Shown here piece by piece: positions 59,977 to 64,000 of a DNA stretch of 64,000 nt (its first letter is position 1; each line of letters opens with the position of its first letter). Both the position numbers and the translations under genes were made by a program. The notes beneath the pieces are model-generated. The model saw only the letters and a program-made list of their open reading frames with translations. It had not been told where the DNA came from and ran no database searches. Source of the stretch: Ilyonectria destructans (taxonomy: Eukaryota > Ascomycota > Sordariomycetes > Hypocreales > Nectriaceae); NCBI GenBank assembly GCA_020740775.1, contig JAHEWK010000001.1, forward strand, positions 5,270,001 through 5,334,000, in the 5' to 3' direction.

Positions 59977-62900
59977 ATGGACTCGCAATCCCTGCCTGAT
60001 ATCCCATCAGGTGGTGGCAGCACTTCGAATGCATCACTCCAAGAAAAAGTCGCCCGTACGATTCGCGAGGCCCACCAAGACGAACCGCCCAAAGATGTCT
60101 TTGTTAAGGATGTATGGCCCATCCTAGAGGCAGATTATGAGACGATGGTACAAGAACTAGTCGAATTTTGCAAGAACAAACTGCACAAAAAACCCATTTC
60201 TTGCAATGTTACCGGCAGAGTCAAATGCAGCGATTCTATCAGCCGATCCCTTCACCGACGCGAAAAAAACCTCACGGAGAAGGAGAACAAGCAGTACAAA
60301 AGCCTTGCAGACGTGATCGACGATATACATGATCTCGCAGGGATTCGAATAGTGGTCGACTTCCAGTCTGACATTGAGAATGTCTCTTCTTTCATCCAGA
60401 CAACATTTCAACAGCTGAAGAGCCCAAATGATTTCTCCCCTGACCGAAAAGTCAGCGAAATTTGGCAACCATTGTTTGGAGCCTACAGAACCTGCAACTA
60501 TCGCGTCGGAGTGGAACCCGGGACCAGTGGCCGTCTTTCTCAATATTGCGGTGTGATGTTTGAAATCCAGCTCACCGATATTGCGGAGAGTTTATACAAT
60601 CGATTTGCACACTCTTTGTTGTACAAAAAGTCTTCTGGCAGACTCCGTCGTCAAGATGAAATAGTTATCGACATGACGCATGGAATATCTCTTCTGTACT
60701 CACTTTGTCTGGTATACATGCAGGACAGATTGGAAGGTTCTGCCCGCGATAGTGACGTGAACAACAAACTACGTGGTGCCTTGAGACGGGCTGAAGGAGA
60801 GGGAAACTTGGACGCATTGATGGAGACAATCCCCAAGATGCCGGGATCTGATGTTCAAAACCGCACTATCTCAAGCGCAGGCGGATCTTCCTTGAAAAGG
60901 CGTGCGTCTTTTCGCGAGACTATTCCCATTGCTACACTCAAAAAGGCACTTGAACCCTCAGAAGGCCACACATCTGCTGATGATCTTTGGGCATTGCTTA
61001 TCAACATGAGCAGCGACACTGAGCGTGAAAATCAGAGAGATGTTGCCGATGCTGACGCCTGGATTCGCGACAAACACTACAATGCAGACAGGCTCAAGAT
61101 TGAACGACTGTCGGGTGACCTGCTGTCGATGGATCAGTGTTACATCAATCTTGCCGTCGTGGAGAAGCCTGGCCAGGGCGCAGGTCACACAAGGGGAGGA
61201 AGCGGAATGCCCTCTCCATTTTCGCTCTTCGCTCGACAGAAAGTTGAGACACCGAACAAGACGATCCAGGTCGAGTTGCCGACACTCTTCAGTCAACGCA
61301 TTGCACACAATAATCGCACGGTACCACCAAGACGAATTTTGATTCGCGGACGCGCGGGGGTTGGAAAGACCACATTGTGTAAAAAGATGGTCTATGACTT
61401 TACACACGGAACGCAGACGGAGCTTCATCGCACATGGGCTAAATTGTTTGACCGCTTGCTCTGGGTGCCTTTGAGGAATTTGAAAAGGCGATCAGCTCCG
61501 GGATACAACCACGAGGAACTGTTCTACCATGAATACTTTTCTGGACAGGGACGCGACAGGGGCCGCCACTCTGCTGGGAGACTATGGCAAACGTTGAATG
61601 ATACCAACAGCAGTAGAACCCTGTTCGTTCTCGATGGTTTGGACGAAGTATCCGAGCTCTTGGACCCAGACAGCGAGATGTTCGAGTTTCTCCAAGATCT
61701 TTTACATCAACCCAACGTCATTATTACATCCCGGCCACATACCAGCCTTCCTCCTAGCGTCCGAAATCCCGATCTTGATTTAGAAACCATTGGATTCTAC
61801 CCAGAGCAGGTGAAAGCATACCTCGAGGCCGACCCCAACATAAATCCAAGAGCCAACGAAGTCCTTTCTTTCCTTCAAGATCATTGGCTTATCCAGGGTC
61901 TTGTGAGAATCCCAATTCAACTGGATGCGCTTTGTTTCACCTGGGAAGACTTCGATTCTGGAATCCAACCGGATACAATGACAAGTATTTACAAAGCTAT
62001 TGTAGAAAAGTTGTGGAAGAAAGATGTCCTGCGATTGGAGAAGAAGCATGATGGGGAACGGGTGACGCGCTCCCAAATTCAGATGGCAGAAGTTGAGGAC
62101 TTTGTCAAACATGAGGTTTGCTTCCTTGAATGCCTCGGTTTCACGGGACTACACAACGACGTATTGGAGTTCAAGCCAGAGCATCTGCGAACTATATCCA
62201 AGTATTTCAAGGACACGAAACTGGTGCTTGATAAGACACTTCCACGCCTCTCTTTTCTGCGGAATTCAGATGCCTCGCCAAAAGACCGCCACCTCAATTA
62301 TCACTTCCTACACCTGACCTTTCAAGAGTACTTTGCAGCTCGGTACTTTGTCCGGAAGTGGACATCCGGAGAGAAGTTGTCTACACTGAAGTTCGACAGC
62401 CGACGGGAGAGGTTCAGTGCCACAAAGATCAATCCTGAAAAATTCCTGCAGAAGGAAAAGTACAATATACGCTACAATATTCTTTGGCGTTTTGTCGCCG
62501 GCCTACTTCACTCCAACCATGATGAAGAGCAACTCTGTCGATTCTTTTACACGATCGAGGGCCAACCACGAGACCTCTTAGGTCCAGTGCATCAACGACT
62601 GGTCATGCATTGCCTGAGCGAGGTTGGTCCATTGCAGGAGACCCTAGAGTTTAACCGGCTTCGAAGGAACCTAGAGGCTCAATTGAAGCAGTGGCTGCTG
62701 TTTGAATGTAATTTTACATTCAACAAGCCAAGACAACCACATTTATCAACCGAGATGGAATTCCCAGACTCCATTCTGCAAGCAGTTCTACAAGAAGAAT
62801 GCGAGAGCGTTAAACTGCAGGTCCTTGCCTCATTGAGGGCAAGACCGAGTATTTCTCAACCCATGATAGAATGTGTTGTTCCTTGGTTGAGAGGTAATGC

Positions 62901-64000
62901 TCCAATACAGTTGAAAACAGCAACCATGCTGGTATTCAGACGTCCCCTATCCCTGTCGGAGGAGACTCTCCAGACCCTCGTGGCCTTGTTGAAGGACCCG
63001 GATAGTGGCATTCGGTCCTCTGCAGTAGTGGCCTTAGGTTGGCAGTCGGCCTTATCAGAGGAGACCCTCGTGGCCTTATTGAAGGATCCAGATGTTCGGT
63101 CCGCCGCAGCAGAGGCCTTACGTAGGCAACCGGCTCTATCAGAGGAGACTCTTCAGGCCCTATTGGCCTTATTAGAGAATCCGGATGGTGATGCTCAGTC
63201 TTATGCGGCAGAGGCCTTAGGCAGTCAGTCAACCCTATCAGAGGGGACTATTCAGGCCCTCCTTGCCTTATTAGACGACCAGAGCAGCCTTACTCGGTTC
63301 TTGGCAGCAGACGTTTTAGGCAGTCAGTCAACCCTATCAGATGGGACTCTCAAGGCCCTCGTGGCCTTATTAGAGGATCTGGATAGTGACATTCGGTCCC
63401 ATGCAGCAGACGCCTTAGGTAGGCAACCGACTCTATCAGAGGAGACTCTTCAGGCCCTTGTGGCCTTATTAGAGGATCCAGAAAGTAATGTTCGGTCCTC
63501 TGCAGCAAAGTCCTTAGGCAGTCGGTCAACCCTATCAGGGGGGACTGTTCAGGCCCTTATGACCGTATTAAAGGATCCGGATGGTTATGTTCGGTCCTCT
63601 GCAGCAGATGCCTTAGGCAGTCAGTCAGCTCTACCGGAGGGGGCTATTCAGGCCCTCATGACTGTATTAAAGGATCCGGATAGTTGTGTTCGGTCCTCTG
63701 CAGCAGCTGCCTTAGGCAGTCAGTCGGCTCTACCGGAGGGGGCTATTCAGGCCCTCATGACTATATTAAAGGATCCGAATAGTTATGTTCGGTCCTCTGC
63801 AGCAAGAGCCGTGGGTAGGCAGTCGGCTCTTTCAGATAAAATATTCACTTCTTTTCTTCGGGAAACTGATAGACGATCGTTCGAGGCCCTATATAGCATG
63901 GGGATATCGGAAAGCTTCTCAAATCACCTAATATGCCATGCCACGGCTAGCAATTGCAAAATCATTATGCCAGAAGCAGAGTGGGAAATTCCTTTCGATC
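59977..64000 (+). CDS. NLR-type protein: RelA/SpoT-like domain, NACHT NTPase, HEAT-like repeats (partial)
   Basis: The first in-frame ATG is 59977; the frame has no stop or intron through 64000, giving 1341 residues with the C-terminus outside the window. Residues 75-220 match a RelA/SpoT nucleotidyltransferase: VTGRVKCSDSIS (78-89), DLAGIRIVV (119-127), AYRTCNYRV (169-177), FEIQL (195-199) and AHSLLYK (211-217). RLSGDLLSMDQCYINLAVVE (377-396) is a linker motif seen before NACHT in many fungal NLRs. NACHT: Walker A GRAGVGKTT (458-466, K464), Walker B LFVLDGLDEV (549-558), VIITSRPH, and winged-helix FLHLTFQEYFAARYF (777-791). Nine HEAT-like repeats cover 993-1284. Such NLRs are thought to mediate non-self recognition and regulated cell death; the signal and product here are unknown. 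Confidence 0.88.
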   Translation, partial: MDSQSLPDIPSGGGSTSNASLQEKVARTIREAHQDEPPKDVFVKDVWPILEADYETMVQELVEFCKNKLHKKPISCNVTGRVKCSDSISRSLHRREKNLTEKENKQYKSLADVIDDIHDLAGIRIVVDFQSDIENVSSFIQTTFQQLKSPNDFSPDRKVSEIWQPLFGAYRTCNYRVGVEPGTSGRLSQYCGVMFEIQLTDIAESLYNRFAHSLLYKKSSGRLRRQDEIVIDMTHGISLLYSLCLVYMQDRLEGSARDSDVNNKLRGALRRAEGEGNLDALMETIPKMPGSDVQNRTISSAGGSSLKRRASFRETIPIATLKKALEPSEGHTSADDLWALLINMSSDTERENQRDVADADAWIRDKHYNADRLKIERLSGDLLSMDQCYINLAVVEKPGQGAGHTRGGSGMPSPFSLFARQKVETPNKTIQVELPTLFSQRIAHNNRTVPPRRILIRGRAGVGKTTLCKKMVYDFTHGTQTELHRTWAKLFDRLLWVPLRNLKRRSAPGYNHEELFYHEYFSGQGRDRGRHSAGRLWQTLNDTNSSRTLFVLDGLDEVSELLDPDSEMFEFLQDLLHQPNVIITSRPHTSLPPSVRNPDLDLETIGFYPEQVKAYLEADPNINPRANEVLSFLQDHWLIQGLVRIPIQLDALCFTWEDFDSGIQPDTMTSIYKAIVEKLWKKDVLRLEKKHDGERVTRSQIQMAEVEDFVKHEVCFLECLGFTGLHNDVLEFKPEHLRTISKYFKDTKLVLDKTLPRLSFLRNSDASPKDRHLNYHFLHLTFQEYFAARYFVRKWTSGEKLSTLKFDSRRERFSATKINPEKFLQKEKYNIRYNILWRFVAGLLHSNHDEEQLCRFFYTIEGQPRDLLGPVHQRLVMHCLSEVGPLQETLEFNRLRRNLEAQLKQWLLFECNFTFNKPRQPHLSTEMEFPDSILQAVLQEECESVKLQVLASLRARPSISQPMIECVVPWLRGNAPIQLKTATMLVFRRPLSLSEETLQTLVALLKDPDSGIRSSAVVALGWQSALSEETLVALLKDPDVRSAAAEALRRQPALSEETLQALLALLENPDGDAQSYAAEALGSQSTLSEGTIQALLALLDDQSSLTRFLAADVLGSQSTLSDGTLKALVALLEDLDSDIRSHAADALGRQPTLSEETLQALVALLEDPESNVRSSAAKSLGSRSTLSGGTVQALMTVLKDPDGYVRSSAADALGSQSALPEGAIQALMTVLKDPDSCVRSSAAAALGSQSALPEGAIQALMTILKDPNSYVRSSAARAVGRQSALSDKIFTSFLRETDRRSFEALYSMGISESFSNHLICHATASNCKIIMPEAEWEIPFD
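62953..63828 (+). repeat. Tandem 99-bp coding repeats encoding nine HEAT-like units
   Basis: Eight units of 33 codons and one of 28 codons (unit 2, 63052-63135) run in frame. Consensus at protein level is LSEETLQALVALLKDPDS followed by xVRSSAAEALGxQSA, a HEAT-type helix pair. Units 8 (63631-63729) and 9 (63730-63828) differ at about 10 of 99 bases. This high DNA similarity indicates recent duplication or gene conversion. Sequence after 63828 leaves the repeat pattern. Confidence 0.93.

Follow-up and report, generated by a model that had tools for sequence, protein, structure and literature searches.

The DNA stretch analysed here (the window) comprises 64,000 nucleotides of the Ilyonectria destructans contig JAHEWK010000001.1 (positions 5,270,001–5,334,000; C1:5270001-5334000 in the 71.7 Mb assembly of 74 contigs used for the genome searches). 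Its right-hand end is occupied by a gene for a NOD-like receptor (NLR), in which a RelA/SpoT-type synthetase domain precedes a NACHT NTPase and a series of HEAT repeats. The gene was compared with its paralogues, with fungal relatives and with bacterial synthetases.

Gene structure and domain composition

A single open frame on the plus strand leads from an ATG at 59977 to a stop ending at 64071, 71 bases beyond the window end (59977–64000 lie inside; locus L005 2977-7071 equals window 59977-64071), and encodes 1364 amino acids (aa). An earlier, sequence-only reading of the window had described one frame joining RelA/SpoT motifs near residues 78–217, the fungal NLR linker motif, a NACHT and nine HEAT-like repeats, and had proposed a domain search of the full gene past 64000; this search found RelA_SpoT, NACHT and HEAT_2 in the same 1364-aa protein, in full agreement with that description. 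In the Pfam protein scan PF04607 (RelA_SpoT) matched residues 81–219 (60217–60633; 39.0 bits, E 1.1e-9, cut-off 27), and the same domain reached 44.2 bits in the profile search of the genome. Pfam, the structural model and the PDB comparison together placed the synthetase domain at residues 38–252 (60088–60732). The NACHT match (residues 452–617, 61330–61827; E 5.2e-14) included intact Walker A (GRAGVGKTT) and Walker B (LFVLDGLDE) motifs, read off the sequence. The presumed sensor, matched by HEAT_2 at E 4.5e-45 with the best stretch at residues 1192–1279, contained nine HEAT units at residues 993–1284 (62953–63828), 33 residues long in eight cases and 28 in the other; this number is a by-eye count, pattern counts having caught only part of the units.

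The closest named proteins belonged to Ilyonectria and Dactylonectria. The public model P0001 from the same contig has the same start methionine and the same RelA_SpoT-NLR fusion; RelA_SpoT, NACHT and HEAT were likewise combined in P0003 and P0005 (both Dactylonectria) and in P0004 (Ilyonectria), P0002, whose contig of 3037 bases shows no HEAT part, combined RelA_SpoT with NACHT, and in further species the RelA_SpoT-NACHT fusion was present on other chassis. The view that a faulty gene model has joined two separate genes, one for the RelA_SpoT segment and one for the NLR, could draw on P0001, whose lack of one 33-residue repeat means that gene models are imperfect here; with a single frame of this length and the same fusion in P0001 and all these relatives, such an artefact is extremely improbable, and the two-gene reading was rejected. 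The gap in P0001 covers exactly 33 residues (1081–1113; window 63217–63315), corresponding to one HEAT unit. A 99-base GC-AG skip yields this gap and no GT-AG skip does; the gap is perhaps an artefact of gene calling across the repeats.

The N-terminal module and further RelA_SpoT copies

The border of the N-terminal part was located by BLASTP against 25 RelA_SpoT proteins that do not belong to the clade of the window protein (three from this genome and 22 others). The similarity stopped at or before residue 351 in all 25, of which only 14 bear on the border, because the other 11 are 301–359 residues long and the similarity had to end early; in the 14 longer proteins it ended at residues 254 to 351. 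Approached from the other side, the three best NACHT-region paralogues (61, 62 and 52% identity over residues 362–860) all began to resemble the window protein at its residue 359 (at 71, 62 and 439 in their own frames), the similarity spanning NACHT in all three and HEAT in two, and all three shared the linker motif IERLSGDLLSMDQCYINLAVVE. As N-termini the paralogues had ARM_5 (E 1.2e-155), a sub-threshold match to alpha/beta-hydrolase (E 0.012) and two short frames in which Pfam matched nothing. The similarity limits at 351 and 359 therefore define residues 1 to ~355 as a movable module and the rest as a shared chassis. On this sequence comparison the fusion is a module swap with an exchangeable N-terminal effector domain, the border lying between 351 and 359: the module ends with a tail behind the synthetase domain (residues 253–358, 60733–61050), and the chassis starts with the stretch holding the linker motif (residues 359–440, 61051–61296). 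The effector-slot logic of the previous reading is borne out by the border together with the different N-termini that this chassis carries in the paralogues. For fungal NLRs, Dyrka 2014 (PMC4986451) proposed that N-terminal domains are assorted combinatorially.

The genome profile search with PF04607 matched four places, all above cut-off. Two of the three copies outside the window, on contigs C12 and C3, precede NPHP3_N/NACHT frames. In the C12 copy NPHP3_N and NACHT are in the same frame as RelA_SpoT (the protein scanned whole gave 26.0 bits against the cut-off of 27), and a frame with WD40 matches overlaps its end; in the C3 copy an NPHP3_N frame adjoins the RelA_SpoT frame, and a further frame is WD40-like by eye. 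The copy on C23 (L007 4345-6066) continues after RelA_SpoT with 358 residues without a Pfam match, which look NACHT-like by eye, with VIIVDG and an unusual Walker A (GHGSQGPKS); its synthetase domain carries R124M. It is possibly a degenerate or helper-type receptor. A fifth, partial relative was recovered by protein search on C10 (L125, G000:C10:165461-165679), with 74 matched residues corresponding to 177–250; it kept FEIQVT and gave no Pfam RelA_SpoT match. A HET-domain gene (L008 1651-3309, minus strand, E 1.4e-29) lies divergently beside the RelA_SpoT-NACHT gene on C12.

RelA_SpoT had been named by the sequence-only reading as a listed N-terminal domain of fungal NLRs, and such listings do exist: the Podospora anserina nwd5 (Pa_5_1230) appears as a RelA_SpoT NLR in PMC3689799 (2013), where a table gives it a maximum fold change of 3.62 during the incompatibility response, and the domain is found in the table and discussion of PMC4986451, in PMC10197012 (2023) and in the Sordariales survey of 2025 (PMC12258605), where 14 RelA_SpoT NLRs (82%) are of the T-NACHT type. 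The window protein resembles these receptors in having RelA_SpoT before NACHT, with N-termini assorted combinatorially, but differs in its HEAT C-terminus, since the listed examples that were compared have WD or unassigned C-termini. The literature searched, subscription papers being mostly outside it, yielded no functional study of a fungal RelA_SpoT-NLR domain and no mention of the Ser/Asn/Thr active-site pattern described below.

Fold, active site and origin of the synthetase domain

Structure prediction followed by comparison with the PDB, as the earlier reading had suggested, gave a small alarmone synthetase (SAS) fold, the SYNTH fold, for the AlphaFold model. The nearest solved structures were synthetases of the RelQ/RelP type (SAS1/SAS2), and the fold score appeared closer to these than to toxic small alarmone synthetases (toxSAS), without clearly separating the two; FaRel2 and CapRel were not among the matches of the PDB sequence searches.

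Residues were counted, gaps aside, in 32 fungal domains and compared with 33 bacterial open reading frames (ORFs). The fungal set excluded P0001, which is the window protein itself, and P0018, whose model begins inside the domain; P0017 (acceptor loop missing) and the fragments P0029 and P0030 were counted only where letters were present and were left out of the tree. A search with the C3 copy contributed one protein to the relatives and a profile search 15, of which P0031–P0034 (E 2.6e-6 to 8.5e-4, 26–33% identity) were not used. The bacterial ORFs came from three locus sets (4 of 80, 2 of 4 and 27 of 28, the 28th being the L009 copy) and form a narrow sample, mostly Bacillota with some Actinomycetota. 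Functional roles were taken from FaRel2 (R64, K66, S70, K74, R77, D90, R95, E145, Q147, with Y128 on the acceptor side; PMC11782079) and Staphylococcus aureus RelP (R78, K80, S84, K88, R91, D107, R112, E174, H190, with acceptor Y151; PMC5794853) and transferred to window numbering by spacing and alignment; for the lost His and Arg described below the exact role is presumed.

The ATP-donor and metal side of the site is almost completely preserved, with nine of ten positions kept in the window protein. The donor motif TGRVKCSDSISRSLHRRE (residues 79–96, 60211–60264) includes R81, K83 and S87, each present in 31/31 fungal domains, and R94 (30/31); IHDLAGIRIVVD (residues 117–128, 60325–60360) holds the Mg-binding D119 (32/32) and the adenine-stacking R124 (31/32); in MFEIQLTDIAESLYNRFAHSLLYK (residues 194–217, 60556–60627) E196, Q198 and H212 were found in 30/30, and K217 is kept as well. 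The nine donor and catalytic columns, each conserved to 97–100%, had a mean conservation of 99.2% against 60% over all 160 columns (29 domains), which none of 100000 random nine-column sets reached; the sequences being related, this is a description and not a probability. The tenth position, equivalent to Lys 74 of FaRel2 and Lys 88 of RelP, is Ser 91 in the window protein, Ser in 30 and Thr in one of 31 fungal domains, and Lys in all 33 bacterial ORFs. R95, Arg in 31/31 fungal domains, is Lys in 11 and Arg in eight of the 33 bacterial ORFs.

The acceptor side is altered throughout the fungal family. The 'G-loop' LFGAYRTCNYRVG (residues 166–178, 60472–60510) contains Y170 and N174, the latter position being Asn in 30/30 fungal domains and His in 32/33 bacterial ORFs. 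Position 200, the Arg site of EIQxR, is Thr in the window protein and Thr (23), Leu (5) or Phe (2) in 30 fungal domains, against Arg (30) or Lys (2) in the 33 bacterial ORFs, and positions 207–208 are Tyr-Asn in 30/30 fungal domains but mostly Trp (28/33) and Ala (29/33) in bacteria. The combination of Ser, Asn and Arg loss was seen in none of the 33 bacterial homologues compared. Many fungal rows have a His one or two places past N174, which might stand in for the lost one if the loop were shifted; the window protein has Tyr-Arg there. Measured against YxSxH and EIQxR, which represent the common state of the 33 bacterial ORFs and no formal criterion, the window protein keeps the Tyr, with His replaced by Asn and Arg by Thr, and on its sequence the domain is not filed as a RelQ/RelP-type synthetase of guanosine tetra- and pentaphosphate, (p)ppGpp. 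Since these family-wide changes occur as a set neither in the bacterial synthetases compared nor in the one toxSAS examined, Phrann Gp29, neither ppGpp nor toxSAS activity can simply be carried over to the domain, and they suggest that the acceptor is not bound in the way GDP/GTP is in the bacterial enzymes. Seven domains with Phe for the acceptor Tyr (FGSF; P0011–P0015, P0025 and P0026, five of them from Fusarium/Gibberella) form one clade (99/100) with Leu or Phe at position 200, which is either inactive or using another acceptor.

A tree built from 29 fungal and 33 bacterial domains united the fungal sequences in one group (99/99). Closest to this group among the bacterial rows was L009:2654-4003, a 450-aa ORF from a metagenome-assembled genome of Bacillota (91/90, an unstarred branch with a long-branch warning), and the fungal profile gave it 95.5 bits, with 48.2 for the next of the 33 rows compared. 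Like the fungal domains L009 is without the EIQxR Arg, but unlike them it has retained both the donor Lys and the loop His, and no NACHT was found in it; its placement beside the fungal group is uncertain. Identity of the window protein to P0002, P0003, P0004 and P0005 was 92, 78, 94 and 71% in the synthetase domain, 93, 65, 93 and 69% in NACHT plus winged helix and, for P0003, P0004 and P0005, 57, 73 and 50% in HEAT (P0002 has too little of it). A domain in decay should fall behind NACHT; the synthetase does not, so the constraint on it roughly matches or exceeds that on NACHT. PADLOC gave seven weak to moderate matches on the window protein, four over HEAT and two over the Walker region; PDC-S33 matched residues 54–149 at E 0.0014 and L009 at 7.3e-10. 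In L096 1-2037 (minus strand, bacterial genome G099) the long frame that holds RelA_SpoT also has a sub-threshold SLOG/LSDAT match (E 0.007) at its C-terminus and may be a sensor-enzyme fusion.

Possible activity of the receptor

The favored reading, to which we give a probability of roughly 0.6, is that the RelA/SpoT-family domain would be a live ATP pyrophosphokinase in the effector slot of an NLR, gated by NACHT and HEAT, with an acceptor that may not be ordinary GDP/GTP. Comparison of the sequences establishes the domains, the border between effector and chassis and the kept ATP/Mg site; the receptor is real, intact and of an already listed kind, and the predicted enzyme activity is well supported by sequence. 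In the general NLR scheme a ligand at the repeats switches the NACHT, the N-termini cluster and the effector fires. By analogy, the HEAT repeats would bind a ligand and the NACHT switch would cluster the N-termini and fire the effector, which, following the chemistry of RelA/SpoT homologues (RSH), would move pyrophosphate from ATP onto a 3'-OH. The affected hyphal compartment would then be arrested in growth or die, because no RSH-type hydrolase was found to undo the product.

Several observations weigh against an active enzyme. With S91, N174 and the change at position 200 fixed, activity could have been lost; at acceptor position 170, 23 of 30 fungal domains have Tyr and seven have Phe, and Y128F impairs FaRel2 (PMC11782079). 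C23, one of the four genomic copies, combines R124M with a missing Pfam NACHT. The model is weak near the acceptor loop (70 and 63 at residues 151–170) and at 211–220 (60), the stretch containing H212, and as a prediction it establishes neither catalysis nor oligomerisation. The hydrolase family PF13328, the candidate (p)ppGpp hydrolase partner, had no match in the genome in a search made exon by exon for this one family. This agrees with PMC3153485 (2011), where divergent synthetases and no RSH hydrolase are given for Aspergillus and Gibberella and Cryptococcus is the one fungus named with Mesh1.

The same active-site changes are the basis for regarding the domain as a pseudo-enzyme, perhaps still binding ATP and acting as a scaffold or sensor after loss of catalysis: donor Lys, acceptor-loop His and Arg are changed family-wide, one clade has Phe for Tyr and one copy R124M. 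This is improbable, since the two metal-binding acids and seven other residues hardly vary, R95, a helix turn away from position 91, could compensate for the lost Lys, and the domain is constrained at least about as much as NACHT. It is similarly unlikely that the fungus makes the bacterial alarmone with an ordinary (p)ppGpp synthetase and thereby disturbs nearby bacteria, as proposed in Dyrka 2014 (PMC4986451). The RelQ/RelP-type enzymes are the nearest solved structures, share the R/K/S/R/D/R/E/Q/H donor and metal residues, and have the acceptor Tyr kept in most fungal domains, the window domain included; however, Ser for the donor Lys, Asn for the loop His and Thr for the EIQxR Arg separate the window domain from them, the loss of His and Arg is complete in the 30 fungal domains (of the 33 bacterial ORFs, 32 have His and 32 have Arg or Lys), RelQ/RelP is a free tetramer and not part of an NLR, and a cytosolic NLR would offer no obvious export route.

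Modification of RNA, for instance pyrophosphorylation of the tRNA 3'-CCA as by tRNA-targeting toxSAS, would be a special case of the pyrophosphokinase reading and is somewhat doubtful. The SYNTH core is common to the window domain and toxSAS such as CapRel SJ46 and FaRel2, and in CapRel the pyrophosphokinase is held by a sensor domain in cis (PMC9712102), as it would be in the window protein; the latter differs in its active-site substitutions and in that NACHT-HEAT, and not a pseudo-zinc-finger antitoxin, would have to exert the control. The fold score, apparently nearer to RelQ/RelP, may speak against this case, and so does Phrann Gp29, described in PMC8832971 as a toxSAS that inhibits translation and likely pyrophosphorylates tRNA: its sequence keeps Lys, GYRAVH and EVQIR, that is the Lys, His and Arg lost in the fungal family, and on this one sequence (n=1) toxSAS membership by motif was rejected. 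Extending the pyrophosphokinase reading to the family is tentative: the fungal RelA_SpoT-NLR domains may be a single-origin class with a retuned acceptor site (Asn for His, Arg lost, Ser for the donor Lys and an invariant Arg a turn further along), which would pyrophosphorylate an acceptor other than GDP/GTP when the NLR fires and so be a receptor-gated eukaryotic counterpart of toxSAS.

The RelA_SpoT-NLR architecture class has been known since 2013–2014, and what is added here is the active-site picture. If the domain is live, it would represent a eukaryotic immune receptor acting by pyrophosphate transfer from ATP. This chemistry is known from plastids, from phage defence and from the stress responses of bacteria. 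In the fungi it would sit in organisms in which no RSH hydrolase was found, by the PF13328 search and in PMC3153485. The kept donor site and the changed acceptor site turn the annotation 'ppGpp synthesis' (Dyrka 2014) into an assayable question, for which Podospora nwd5 is a laboratory model of the RelA_SpoT NLRs.

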